A stretch of DNA of 64,000 nt, from positions 3,325,001 through 3,389,000 of the forward strand of contig NC_092680.1 in assembly GCF_964355755.1 (NCBI RefSeq), in the 5' to 3' direction. Source of the DNA: Antedon mediterranea (taxonomy: Eukaryota > Echinodermata > Crinoidea > Comatulida > Antedonidae). Every line of letters starts with the position of its first letter. Position 1 is the first letter of the stretch. A program made the position numbers and the translations under genes. Under the pieces are notes generated by a model. That model was not told the origin of the DNA. It did no database searches and saw nothing but the letters and a program-made list of their open reading frames with translations. Below, piece after piece: positions 250 through 5,098 of the stretch.

Positions 250-3200
250 GGTATCATGTATATAATGATTATTATTGAAACTAGAAATATGGTTGAAACT
301 GAAATACCGATCAACGTCAGTACGCTTGTCATCAGTTCCTTCACTTCGTCCAGTACCTAAAAACGTACAGTCAATTTATTATCAGAAATAATTTACGAAG
401 ATGCAAGAACATACTATGCCGTTAACGTTGTAGTTTTAGTTTATGTATAATTAGAACAGCCAAATCGAATCAAATCGACAATTTAGAAGATAAAAGTAGG
501 TCACAGGATAAAATGAAGATGTTACGGAAAGAATTCATGATAAATATGGAGAACATTTAGGAATGTATTGTCAAAGCTACTAATACTTAAAACCCAAACC
601 GAAGACAATTTAGAAGATTAAAGTATGTGTGGGATAAAAATGAAGATTTTACGGAAGCAAAGAATTCATGATATAAAATGTAGGCATGTATTGTGAAAGT
701 TACTTAAACGTGCGCAAGGACACAAGCGCACCACAGGAAATTTGAGCAAACCGCTTGCGTTGCACCTAAGTCGCTACACTACGTACAAGTGGGAACAAAA
801 ACAAATTAGTTATTGTAGGCACTTTGATATTTAAAGTCATGCAAATTACTGTGGTTAATCAAGTTTGCTTTCAGAAACGAATACCTCACTGCCACTGCTC
901 TCTACTTGCATAAGAATCGCAAAAGAAGTCAAATGGTTGCACACACACGTGACACTTGTCGCTTGGTTGTTATCCGTTTGAATTGAACAGCCTTCTGTTG
1001 ACCAAAATCTTACAAAGAAACAATAATAATTTCATAGTAATGTGTTTTTTGTTTATTTATGTGATACTATGAGTAGACCAATCCCTCATTGATTGAACTT
1101 ACGGTATATCTGATGTTGTTCCATCCAAAAAACAGCACGTTAGCTTTCGATTTTCTTGAATATTGTTTGCATGCTAAAAGTAAAACATATTATACATCAT
1201 TAGGCCTATACTCACCATAACAATATTGTTACTAAATTATTGGACAACAGTTTAAATAATAATAATACAGGTAAATCATTTTTTTGTTTATTAACTATAT
1301 AGGCCTACACATGATTAAAAATATTGAACCTCCAAAAGATTTAAGTAGGAGGGGTCCGGACAAATGTTAATAAATCATTTTTTTCGGGGGACAATGCCTG
1401 ATGACTTACTGGCGGCAATGTTACGTTGACGTTCACATCCGTTACTTCATCCAAATTTGCATCATATACATTTATAGATATGATATCGCTGATTAGTGTC
1501 ATCGGAATGCCAGATCTGTTGATAAAATTATATTTCTTTAGACAGCGTTGACTAAATTTTCTGGAGCTCTTATTTTATGATCGCCCTCACCCATATTTTT
1601 CAATATTATTAGGCCTATTATTGATACCTTGAATTGAAAAAAAATATCTTTATTGTTTACAGCTTTGTCTACAGTGTGATTTTCCTAAATATGGTAGTGA
1701 TATGCCGAAATATGGTAGTGGTATGTCCATGGGCACATCACATTTGTTGTAACATAAAGTTTGATAGTATAGACAAGGCTTTATAGCTTAATCGTATCCT
1801 TTAAGTTTATTCTAAAATCTCTGTAATTTAGAATTCAAACCCTTGGTATCTTTATTATAAAATCGTCTTCTATTAATAAAATACATTGGCAGTCAAATTA
1901 CAAAGACAGAAGACTTTTTTATTTTCTCTATAAACAGCAATAATTTAAGTTATCTAAAATTCCTGATTTTCTTTATTGAACTTCTACCATTAATGTTGTA
2001 GAACTCTAAAATGTTGGCAAGCAGTTTACAGTTTCTTTCTACATTAGAAACTATTGATCATTGAGTATTCTATATCGAATTATGACGATTTGTAGTTTAA
2101 AATATCTAGGCCTACTACGTGTTCTGGTCTAATAAATTATATTTATTTAGTAAATTGATTGTAAATCGTACAAGTTATGTACTGCCTCGGTTTCATTGGA
2201 GTTAACTACAAAGATTGCCATACCAAGAGATTCTGAAATTAAGTTAAAAAAGTAATCATGAATTATTTAAATCACAAATGCATGAATATAATATTAAACG
2301 CAACCATGTATAAATGATAGAAATAATATATCCCTAAATTTTACTTAAAGATGTATTGTCCACTTGAACACAATTTTTGTTGAATATGCCATTGTAATAT
2401 AACATTTATAGTTATCCACTTTGACAAAAAAAGTGGTTCGAAAAAAAATTTATTTCTTTGAAAAAAATGGTAAATTGACTGCCAGCCAATGGATTTTTGG
2501 TTGAGTTTAACAATAGACTGACGTTATTAAAACTACAAAATGACATATTCAAAGTCTGATTGAATAAATCTTCATTGTTCATGTTTTTGCGGGGACAAAA
2601 CATCTAAGCATTAAGTTCATTGCTCATTGAACTTTTGCTTGGAAAGTGTTGATGGTATGTATAAACAGGCATCTAAACGGTATGTAGCATTGTATTGGAA
2701 AGTGTTGATGGCATGTATGAACAGGCATCTAAACGGTATGTAGCATTGTATTGGAAAGTGTTGATGGCATGTATGAACAGGCATCTAAACGGTATGTAGC
2801 ATTGTATTGGAAAGTGTTGATGGCATGTATGAACAGGCATTTAAACGGTATGTAGCATTGTATTGGAAAGTCTTGATGGCATGTATGAACAGGCATCTAA
2901 ACGGTATGTAGCATTGCATTGGAAAGTCTTGATGGCATGTATGAACAGGCATCTAAACGGTATGTAGCATTGTATTAAATATAGAATGTTTTTAGTAATA
3001 AAGTTGTTACATCAGCGAAGAACATCAAATGAACTAATTGAGACTAAAGCATTGACGAAAAGCATTGACGGAAAAAATAGTATTAGCTGTACTGTTTAAT
3101 TGTCGTTACCGTCTGAACGGGCGTCTGAATTAGAAGAAGGGACGAGCTGTATTGCCGTTTCACTGATATCCACAGAAACGATTCCCTCATCAGTGTTGGA

Positions 3201-5098
3201 TGTCCATAACAAGACTCCTTCGACTGTGAATATATCAATAATAATATTCCAAATAAACGGCAAATTACTGAATAAAATGACAGATGAATCAGAGTTCTAT
3301 AACAGTTTTTTCTTTCGACAAAACTATATCAATGGTACGTAACGGTTTCGGAATACGCGTGACTTTTTTTCCGTATGTTTAGGCCTACACCACTTCGTCT
3401 TACCTGGTTCAGTAAAACGCTTTTCGCCGCCTTGTTTATTCATTTCACTAAGCTCTAAACGTGTCACCTCATTAACATTATCAATGTAGTTTATTGTTGA
3501 TTGAATAGAACTATCTTCAATATAGTTATCAGGATTTTCTAGAACAGAAATGAATCACTATATCAAAATATCAAATTAAGAGCCGTAGGACAACACTATG
3601 ACATTGTTTTATAAGGATTGATACGACACAAATTTACTTTGCTATCTTAATATACCATTTTGTAGATTAAGTCCACGAACACTTTGGAAGTGGAGTTGTA
3701 AATTTGTCCTTAGAAAAAATCCTGATATGTGACGGGACTTGAACCCAGGACCCTTGGAGTGGTAGCCAAGCATCATAACCACCAAGCCACAACTCCACTC
3801 CAAAGTGGTATCCAAATACAGGATACCAAATAGTGAAGTTTAAAATGTCTTATAATTATATTATAATTATGTATTGTTATTTTGCAATTATTGAAATAAA
3901 TAAATGAAATAATAATAATGATAATAATAACAATAATACTAATAATAATAATAATAATAATAGTACGAATTTGTAACGCGCCAATTCCAGCAGTAAGTGA
4001 TCAAAGGTGCGGTGTATGAGAGAGCTGAATCTGAAAGAAAAAGATGAAAACTGTTATAACACATTCACATACCTAAACAGCCTAGAATTTCAAATCGTAT
4101 GACGGGCCAGTTTTTCCATGATCGTGGTACGATAAAGGCGACGTGGACTTCGATTTCATACGGCAACATGTTCACAACCGGACTATTATTGTCCGTGTTA
4201 CCAGTAAATGTCTATAAAAACCACATACATTCATAAAAATGGTAATTACTCAATATTGTCGCCGTTTCAGTCACTTAAGCTTGGTTCCCACTAGAACGTA
4301 ACGCAAGGACGTAAACGCAACGCAAGCGTTTTTACCAATGACAAGCGAAGTTATAGACAGTTAGCAATCACAAGCGAATAAGCCATCGCTTGTGATTGGT
4401 CAATTCATTTGCGTTGCGTTACGTCCTTGCGTTGCGTCGCTAGTGGGAACCACGCTTTAATAGTGACTTTCTGATTGCACCTGCAATGCAAGTAAATGCC
4501 TGGTATTTTATGGAACGTAAATACGCCTCTTATTTCTATCCGGTAAATGGCCTAAAACTTAATTTTAAAATTGTCTACTTACAGTGTTATAGCAATCTTC
4601 TTGAAAATTAATTGTATAAGAATTAGAAGCTGCGACTTTATAACAGAACAAGAAAGAAGTGACCCATTCTGGATGAGTTGGAAAGTCAGGCGAACTATGT
4701 CTTCCTTGTGTTATGACTCCAGTAACTCTCTTCTTTTCTCCAAAATCGACACAAATCCACTGGTTTGTATCGTAAGTATGTGCAGGACCCCATCCACCGG
4801 CATGTAGACTATTGGCAACGGAATTGAGCCTTGCCCGTGGTGGACCAGCCCAATTATTATTATTGTCGTTAATGGTTGATGCATGCATTTGCTCATCTAG
4901 AATCTCTCCCGACTCCACTCCAAGAGCGTGAGGTAAACACGCTCCTATAAAAAAAAAGCATTCAGACGTTCAATGTTTAATTGATTTTCCTCGCGAAAAT
5001 GATTCTTATAAAACAATAAAAGAAAACTTACCACTACAACAGTCAACCAGCATCATCATTATATACAAAAAAATACAAAATGGGCAGAAAATATTCAT
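250..5098 (-). CDS. Adhesion-type GPCR with N-terminal discoidin domain (3' part missing)
   Basis: Ten phase-compatible exons, 5' to 3' on the minus strand: 5098-5032, 4944-4583, 4211-4073, 3538-3404, 3223-3110, 2232-2172, 1515-1410, 1173-1103, 1008-885 and 356-250. They give about 428 uninterrupted codons. The start is the ATG at 5098, followed by a hydrophobic signal peptide. Next comes an F5/8 type C domain, from CLPHALGVESGEI to the closing IRFEILGC (about residues 24-160). A GAIN-like region follows, including ESLGMAIFVVNSNE and MTLISDIISINVYD, then a GPS with WSTEGC and CNHLTSFAILM. The predicted autoproteolysis site is between L378 and T379. The last exon is a hydrophobic helix (LTLIGISVSTIFLVSIIII), the expected TM1, and it ends at a GT donor. 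TM2-7 must lie left of the window. The likely role is a cell-surface adhesion receptor cleaved at the GPS. The weakest exons are 3223-3110 and 2232-2172, the latter with donor GTACGA. The ligand is unknown. Confidence 0.85.
478..703. repeat. Diverged direct duplication, about 125 bp unit
   Basis: Two tandem copies start near 479 and 606. Both read caatttagaagat, then a version of aaaatgaagat, acggaa, gaattcatgat, and a related atgtattgt. They lie in an intron of the GPCR gene. Confidence 0.75.
704..797. mobile_element. Partial copy of TTAA MITE family B
   Basis: This degenerate copy contains gcgcaaggacacaagcg and ends in aagtgggaac. That matches the end sequence of the intact family B copy at 4279-4456. 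It lies in a GPCR intron. Confidence 0.45.
885..1173 (-). other. GPS motif exon pair of the adhesion GPCR
   Basis: Exon 1173-1103 supplies KLTCCFLD, the first GPS cysteine block. Exon 1008-885 supplies WSTEGC and CVCNHLTSFAILM. The order Cys, W-S-x-x-G-C, then C-x-C-N-H-L-T is the GPS consensus of adhesion GPCRs and polycystin-1-like proteins, which cut themselves between Leu and Thr. All the expected cysteines and the H-L-T catalytic triplet are present, so cleavage is predicted to work. The intron between them has phase 2. Confidence 0.92.
1661..1783. mobile_element. TTAA MITE family A, copy 1
   Basis: It starts agctttgtctaca and ends tttgatagtatagacaaggct. Inside are the family hallmarks atatggtagtgatatg and gggcacatcaca. 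It lies in a GPCR intron. Confidence 0.8.
2172..2232 (-). other. Short GAIN-domain exon of the adhesion GPCR
   Basis: This 61-nt exon is too short to show as an ORF. The acceptor is taatttcag and the product is ESLGMAIFVVNSNETEAVHN. It enters in phase 1 and leaves in phase 2, which is what is needed to join exon 3223-3110 to exon 1515-1410. The donor GTACGA is non-ideal, so the 3' end is less certain than the acceptor. Confidence 0.65.
2345..2607. mobile_element. MITE family M, intact copy
   Basis: Terminal inverted repeats are ttaaagatgtattgtcc on the left and ggggacaaaacatctaa on the right. The interior is AT-rich and noncoding. Related copies are at 30941-31290 and 53549-53823. A 63-codon minus-strand ORF inside it is incidental. 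Confidence 0.8.
2641..2976. repeat. Tandem repeat, six 56-bp units
   Basis: Units begin ggaaagtgttgatgg at 2641, 2697, 2753, 2809, 2865 and 2921. They are nearly identical, and the last two share gtctt in place of gtgtt. The array is intronic in the GPCR gene. Unit similarity suggests recent expansion. Confidence 0.95.
3718..3805 (-). mobile_element. tRNA-derived SINE head
   Basis: On the minus strand it reads ggagttgtggcttggtgg (A-box-like) and then gggttcaagtcccg (B box). This is the RNA polymerase III promoter layout of a tRNA-derived SINE. Flanking copies of a ggagtggagttg-like sequence form an imperfect inverted repeat. Confidence 0.6.
3908..3962. repeat. AAT microsatellite
   Basis: Imperfect run of aat triplets. 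Read on the minus strand, it would encode a short tyrosine run and a stop if the optional exon ending here were used. Confidence 0.9.
4073..4944 (-). other. F5/8 type C (discoidin) domain exons
   Basis: Exons 4944-4583 and 4211-4073 join in phase 0. Recognisable blocks in order are CLPHALGVESGEILD, RLNSVANSLHAGGWGP, WICVDFGEKKRVTGVITQGR, EWVTSF and WPVIRFEILGC. The first and last cysteines are the pair that closes this beta-barrel fold. Such domains bind membranes, glycans or collagen. Which one applies here cannot be told from sequence alone. Confidence 0.9.
4279..4456. mobile_element. TTAA MITE family B, intact copy
   Basis: Perfect TTAA at 4275-4278 and 4457-4460 flanks inverted ends: cttggttcccactag on the left and ctagtgggaaccacg on the right. 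Inner arms carry acgcaaggacgtaa and ttacgtccttgcgt. TTAA target duplication is typical of piggyBac-type transposition. The element has no coding capacity. Confidence 0.85.

Follow-up and report, generated by a model that had tools for sequence, protein, structure and literature searches.

The window analysed here is a stretch of 64,000 nucleotides (nts) of the Antedon mediterranea genome (C11:3325001-3389000), and the assembly searched with it consists of 18 contigs (354 Mb). At its left end lies a gene on the minus strand (C11:3322003-3330098), hereafter the window gene, which runs from window position 5098 leftwards past the window edge. Of its 16 exons, ten are located inside the window and six beyond its left edge (positions -672 to -2997), and joined together they encode 682 amino acids and a stop codon. 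The introns are bounded by GT and AG throughout with matching phases, and the first ten exons, with start phases 0, 1, 0, 1, 1, 1, 2, 0, 2 and 0, form a single open frame. These joins were chosen on the DNA alone so as to keep the frame, and the gene model is a predicted one. An earlier note on this DNA had proposed the ten minus-strand exons; its coordinates proved right, and it had placed the junctions 4073-3538 and 3110-2232-1515 correctly, with splice sites and phases in agreement.

Exon 1 (5032..5098) carries the start codon and a signal-peptide-like hydrophobic N-terminus and ends in phase 1. Exon 2 (4583..4944; residues 23-143) encodes most of an F5/8C (discoidin) domain and exon 3 (4073..4211) its C-terminal part, and besides Pfam a leave-one-out profile matched the two exons at 1e-20 and 6.1e-18, respectively. 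The linker and the start of a GAIN-like region are found in exon 4 (3404..3538), whose DNA is 81% identical to that of a paralogue described below. The GAIN-like region continues through exon 5 (3110..3223), also present in the paralogue, exon 6 (2172..2232), which has a weak donor (GTACGA) and the same length, 61 nt, as its counterpart in the paralogue, and exon 7 (1410..1515; 94% DNA identity), which probably represents subdomain B. The GPS motif starts in exon 8 (1103..1173), as judged from the gene model and Pfam, and exon 9 (885..1008; 97% DNA identity) contains its Trp and Cys residues, the HL/T triad and the Stachel TSFAILMQV; in the gene model, exon 10 (250..356) encodes TM1. Exons 11-16, left of the window (-777..-672, -1406..-1189, -1694..-1628, -2113..-2010, -2506..-2338 and -2997..-2899, minus strand), encode TM2-TM7 and the tail, so that the leftward extension suggested in the earlier note led to the remainder of the receptor. 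Two repeats lie within the introns. Intron 2 contains an element of about 190 bp (window 4274-4463) that aligns with its own reverse complement (75%) and recurs elsewhere in copies of 95-99% identity (at least 116 genome matches, 40 of 1194 candidates scored); it resembles a short palindromic transposon that has spread recently. Intron 5 contains a tandem array (window 2639-2976) with a period of 56 bp, 6 copies and 97% matches.

When the joined protein was compared with Pfam, three domains exceeded the curated cut-offs: F5_F8_type_C at residues 47-184 (E 2.8e-13; 50.5 bits against a cut-off of 28.2, covering positions 7-126 of the 127 in the profile and hence nearly the whole domain), GPS (PF01825) at residues 340-384 (E 2.2e-9) and 7tm_2 (PF00002), of the secretin/adhesion type, at residues 403-640 (E 4.7e-33). 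The GPS sequence, CVCNHLTSFAILMQ, shows the Cys/Trp pattern and the H-L/T cleavage triad. Hydropathy gave 12 local maxima above 1.5, several of them overlapping, one at the N-terminus (residues 3-21) and the others within residues 407-645, where they fit seven helices. Cysteines at residues 25 and 188 lie close to both ends of the F5/8C domain and would form a disulphide as in known domains of this type. Within the 198-residue GAIN stretch, solved receptors match the C-terminal part only (ADGRG2 from 93, ADGRG6 from 102 and ADGRL3 from 137); subdomain A was not recognisable, and the Pfam matches of the joined protein included no GAIN model. The best phmmer matches of the protein are adhesion GPCRs. 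Judged from its sequence, the window gene is confirmed as a real, complete adhesion GPCR gene that joins a discoidin domain to the receptor, and the combination of a signal-like start, one F5/8C domain, GPS and TM1 in one gene, read earlier from the letters, is borne out by the joined frame and Pfam. In addition, exons 2-3 are flanked by phase-1 introns on both sides, which is the usual mark of a shuffled module.

A protein search of the genome, with matches at C11:3.0712-3.0784 Mb, revealed a diverged paralogue at about C11:3.0708-3.0816 Mb, approximately 240 kb from the window gene, in which the F5/8C, GAIN, GPS and 7TM exons are ordered in the same way. The splice-aware aligner modelled it with 16 exons covering query residues 1-651, where 464 of the 659 aligned columns are identical, and the tail exon was added separately. 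One of the 16 exons is an 11-nt filler that we judged not credible; it arises because the TM1 exon, 84 nt compared with 107 nt in the window gene, does not join exon 11 in frame. For this reason the paralogue may be a pseudogene, may be misassembled or may be spliced in another way. Nei-Gojobori dN/dS between the two genes was 0.38 for F5/8C (bootstrap 0.24-0.57), 0.44 for the linker and GAIN, 0.33 for the GPS region and 0.24 for TM2-7, with single exons reaching 0.78; point estimates were below 1 in every domain, and for the short signal stretch the upper bootstrap limit is 1.19. That domain and exon order are kept at dN/dS of 0.24-0.44 argues that the discoidin-receptor fusion is a conserved arrangement rather than a chance join.

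The divergence between the paralogues is uneven along the gene. Identity is 58% in F5/8C and 90% in TM2-7, and dS is 0.73 (0.51-1.06) and 0.20 (0.13-0.28), respectively, with non-overlapping intervals, falling to 0.04 in exon 9. Exons 7, 9 and 12-15 are close, exons 1-3 are far diverged, and most of the intron sequence cannot be aligned. Positive selection on the discoidin head was considered and found unsupported, as dN/dS of F5/8C is 0.38 (0.24-0.57), although dS differs too. The near-identical exons suggest gene conversion of the 3′ half, whereas the introns beside them do not, because about 20 bases at most align there; in the other introns up to about 60 bases align, with one stretch of 122 bases in intron 6.

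Profile searches of the genome gave at least 139 GPS matches (150 of 180 candidates scored) and, for F5/8C, the best 150 of 159 matches (150 of 260 candidates scored). Among the matches listed, an F5/8C domain was found within 10 kb upstream of GPS on the same strand in 7 of 139 cases, and in none downstream or on the opposite strand. At 20 kb the numbers were 9 upstream, 1 downstream and 0 opposite, and at 30 kb 9, 1 and 1; both the downstream and the opposite-strand case occur at neighbouring receptor loci on C7. Six more adhesion GPCR loci carry F5/8C (C8:11.26, C6:31.2, C3:1.21, C7:16.89, C7:30.09 and C7:30.11 Mb); some of their models were cut by the ends of the DNA read, and that of C3:1.21 was completed later. 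With the leave-one-out profile, both halves of the domain were detected at all 8 loci, namely the window gene, the paralogue and the six just listed, and the reverse strand gave no match at any of 15 loci. The receptor at C6:31.2 Mb has two F5/8C domains (four exon matches in order), and the one at C7:30.11 Mb an EGF domain after F5/8C (1.4e-5). Two loci whose F5/8C matches are located at least 13 kb (C1:34.98 Mb) and at least 15 kb (C7:16.85 Mb) upstream of GPS were kept outside this set; the latter locus is tagged 'other' in the trees and yet may carry F5/8C. The same searches also returned an F5/8C match (C7:25884587-25884973) within one open frame of 4597 amino acids, and 11 consecutive GPS matches on the minus strand at C7:2.285-2.321 Mb, ten of them equal in score and spaced by about 2.9-5.7 kb, which represent either a recent tandem array or an assembly artefact. 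Single long open frames of about 410-1280 amino acids with 7tm_2 were observed at C10:1.697-1.713, C3:1.126 and C7:22.23-22.31 Mb, among others; by their sequence these would be adhesion/secretin-type receptors with a 7TM region not split by introns.

Trees were calculated from the GPS-to-TM7 region, first with 29 loci of this genome and later with 35, in each case together with ADGRL3 and ADGRD1. The rows were built with our splice-aware aligner, some being partial or containing small doubtful exons; the aligner returns 16 exons on the window gene, a check in which the query is that protein itself. Rows outside the clade described here and without F5/8C were hand-picked from the GPS and 7tm_2 matches, and C7_16.89 and C2_11.12 form long branches. 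The window gene and its paralogue fall inside a clade of 15 rows (support 100/99), which ADGRL3 and ADGRD1, the sole human-class references in the trees, do not join. F5/8C was absent in all 13 other members of the clade (7 and 6 loci) in the approximately 5-7 kb read upstream of each GPS, a distance at which a remote F5/8C could be missed. The other F5/8C receptors are placed elsewhere: C6:31.2, C8:11.26 and C3:1.21 group with one another (100/98), the two receptors at C7:30 form a pair, and C7:16.89 stands on its long branch. When the AU test was applied to the 31-row tree, it rejected a single clade of all eight F5/8C receptors (lnL lower by 147, p 7e-55) and likewise two subsets of them as clades (p 9e-7 and 1.6e-5); these p-values are formal only, the F5/8C group having been named after the loci were seen. 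For the presence of F5/8C the best tree requires 4 changes and the starred branches no fewer than 2, a count that is blind to gain versus loss.

Inspection of TM3 revealed a signature of the clade. The references read WMFLEGVQLY (ADGRL3) and WMLVEGLHLY (ADGRD1), and the glutamate, common in adhesion GPCRs though not treated here as a defining feature, is at a position that we take to be E3.50. In the 15 clade rows this site is occupied by W, M, I, L, V, Y or F, with Trp in the window gene, and an acidic residue is found three positions on; in the 22 rows outside the clade it is Glu in 20 and Gln in 2. All of 14 further loci matching the TM3-4 exon likewise combine the absence of Glu with the acidic residue three positions on, so that 29 of 29 detected family loci have no Glu at this site. 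This count means at least 29 loci (65 of 519 candidates scored) in a set chosen by similarity to the window gene, and it leaves out a weak 7TM match at C3:1.126 Mb (26% identity). With the glutamate replaced, the G-protein coupling of the window gene may differ from that of usual adhesion GPCRs. The shared loss serves both as a marker of the family and as a test of how necessary the residue is.

We then turned to what stands upstream of GPS in the clade. Same-strand open reading frames (ORFs) were compared with Pfam, 15 ORFs from 11 of the 13 relatives (C10:4.83 and C8:11.63 were left out), picked by coding score and by eye; 66 ORFs in 12 loci had exceeded that score. Instead of F5/8C, another module is present upstream in 7 of the 13 relatives: SRCR twice at C7:23.82 (5e-15 and 2.6e-22) and twice at C2:6.76 (1e-12 and 4.4e-20), HYR at C9:24.09 (2.4e-6 and 1.2e-5) and at C4:14.07 (7.7e-4, the tested repeat being under the curated cut-off, 20.2 against 21.7 bits), MAM at C3:7.64 (6e-11), the first half of a C-type lectin domain (Lectin_C) at C3:26.75 (8.3e-13) and LDLa at C5:12.02 (2.9e-9). 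C2:11.12 showed a Thr-rich stretch only, part of which was run against Pfam and had no match, and the ORFs submitted from C10:6.99, C10:5.87 and C3:5.21 gave no firm module. In all, four relatives (C10:6.99, C10:5.87, C10:4.83 and C8:11.63) had no identified module. C3:5.21 had been read by eye as carrying an F-type lectin and EGF, a reading that was dropped, as the lectin stretch had no Pfam match and the EGF stretch one at E 0.04. As a control, 10 ORFs (of 47) from the reverse strand were compared, and none matched at E 0.01.

Sister 7TM regions on different contigs agree in their module, C9_24.09 and C4_14.07 both having HYR (100/100) and C7_23.82 and C2_6.76 both having SRCR twice (96/94). 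From this agreement in two pairs, the shared strand and the nearness of a few kb, we infer that module and 7TM belong to one transcript, presumably by splicing of the relatives' upstream modules to the exons of their 7TM regions. One HYR repeat and LDLa have candidate phase-1 splice sites on both sides, and the evidence for SRCR, MAM, the lectin and the last HYR repeat is mixed or incomplete. Similar receptor cores seem to be fitted with different sensor domains in this animal, and the N-terminal modules (F5/8C, SRCR, HYR, MAM, C-type lectin and LDLa) were probably exchanged by exon shuffling.

Taken together, we consider the window gene a complete adhesion GPCR with an F5/8C domain as ligand-catching head on a GPS-7TM core that is common to a family with exchanged sensor modules, and put the probability of this reading at roughly 0.85. 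Glycan, phospholipid and protein ligands are all known for F5/8C domains, and the head of the window gene may bind any of these, glycans of matrix or membrane being one of several options. In the proposed mechanism, the outer fragment presents its single F5/8C domain, the GPS region would cleave itself between HL and T, and the fragment would stay held on the 7TM part. Once the head is bound to something fixed, such as matrix, a particle or the surface of an adjacent cell, pulling it off or rearranging it would free the Stachel TSFAILMQV and turn on G-protein signalling. Self-cleavage, activation by force or ligand, and G-protein coupling are all predicted by analogy with the adhesion GPCR scheme of cleavage, held fragment, Stachel release and G-protein activation, as it is outlined in passages of PMC13197933 and PMC12716839.

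Alternatively, exons 1-3 could be a gene of their own that encodes a secreted discoidin lectin, and exons 4-16 an adjacent gene on that strand for an adhesion GPCR whose N-terminus is short, so that the join would exist in our model only. Many F5/8C exons do lie away from GPS, for example in the clusters at C2:23.97-24.0 Mb and C10:24.50 Mb. Nevertheless, exon 3 continues in phase 1 into exon 4, the arrangement is kept in the paralogue, and F5/8C followed by GPS recurs in the genome while the reverse order and the opposite strand were unseen within 10 kb among the matches listed, which makes two genes very improbable. Another question is whether the joined protein signals at all, for a decoy or pure adhesion protein would stick without signalling once the glutamate network of TM3 is lost, and that glutamate is replaced in 29 of 29 family loci. 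On the other hand, the Stachel is kept, no other large part is as conserved as TM2-7 (dN/dS 0.24, 90% identity between the two genes), the acidic residue three positions on is retained in 29 of 29, and Glu is also absent from 2 of the 22 other rows, where Gln stands instead. We therefore regard a silent protein as improbable, less so than the two-gene model, and retain the signalling receptor.

A further alternative concerns the origin of the head: F5/8C could be ancestral to these adhesion GPCRs and have been lost or replaced several times, without repeated gain. The change counts given above, at least 2 by the starred branches and 4 on the best tree, leave room for this, as they cannot separate gain from loss. 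However, the F5/8C pair is nested in the 15-row clade, so that several losses there and the insertion of other modules would be needed, and one clade of eight F5/8C receptors is rejected; we consider an ancestral head unlikely, if less remote than the two possibilities above. A broader possible picture is that the 29 loci detected make up a lineage-specific family built on a single GPS-7TM core, recognisable by the loss of TM3 Glu and the acidic residue three positions on. Phase-1 exon shuffling would have given this core new heads many times over, of lectin, scavenger and matrix-binding kinds (F5/8C, SRCR, HYR, MAM, C-type lectin and LDLa). Such a family would form a modular repertoire for surveillance or contact sensing, and F5/8C would have been captured several times by different adhesion GPCR lineages. 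We put this forward tentatively, at slightly below even odds; the shuffled-head family is less certain than the single discoidin fusion. If true, one core with swapped heads is a natural experiment: it would allow the part that determines the ligand to be told from the part that determines the signal, and show whether the trigger responds to any head.

The nearest solved structures are ADGRD1 and ADGRL3, homologous to the window gene in GPS and 7TM (E 6.8e-32 and 4.5e-34, respectively). The Stachel of ADGRD1, TNFAILMQV, is one residue apart from that of the window gene. The matches to both begin past F5/8C (residue 327 or 331), both keep the TM3 Glu that the window gene does not, and in the trees they pair with C6_25.36 and C11_1.23 of this genome, apart from the clade of the window gene. 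For the head, the nearest relatives are the b1/b2 domains of neuropilin-1, the C domains of factors V and VIII and C2 of lactadherin, matched over nearly the whole domain length; unlike the window gene, these proteins have no GPS or 7TM.

A discoidin domain on an adhesion GPCR is known already: as reported in the passages of Nordstrom et al. (2008, PMC2246102) on amphioxus, DS (discoidin) is among the N-terminal domains absent from the human receptors, and domain shuffling is invoked. Those passages share with the present case the discoidin on an adhesion GPCR and do not give the DS gene, its copy number or its arrangement. The suggestion in the earlier note that this is not a standard class and may be lineage-specific holds in part, in that ADGRL3 and ADGRD1 fall outside the clade (other human classes were left out of the trees), while the combination is not unique, given the amphioxus precedent in these passages and the six further F5/8C loci. 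The term 'discoidin' was not found in PMC4302439 or PMC12716839, neither discoidin nor echinoderm was found in the portion covered of the 2026 review PMC13197933, and PMC13228809 had no GPCR match by term. Within the part of the adhesion GPCR literature that was searched, no paper on the 15-receptor clade was found, and what looks new is the setting of the discoidin receptor within a clade whose 13 sampled members besides the paralogue show no F5/8C in the DNA read and, in 7 cases, have other modules upstream. As in the adhesion GPCRs treated in the sections drawn on of PMC12716839, GAIN, GPS and 7TM are combined here with exchangeable extracellular domains. In the subfamilies described in those sections, the sets of N-terminal domains follow the 7TM phylogeny; unlike that pattern, one 7TM clade here seems to bear six modules, and F5/8C occurs in several clades.
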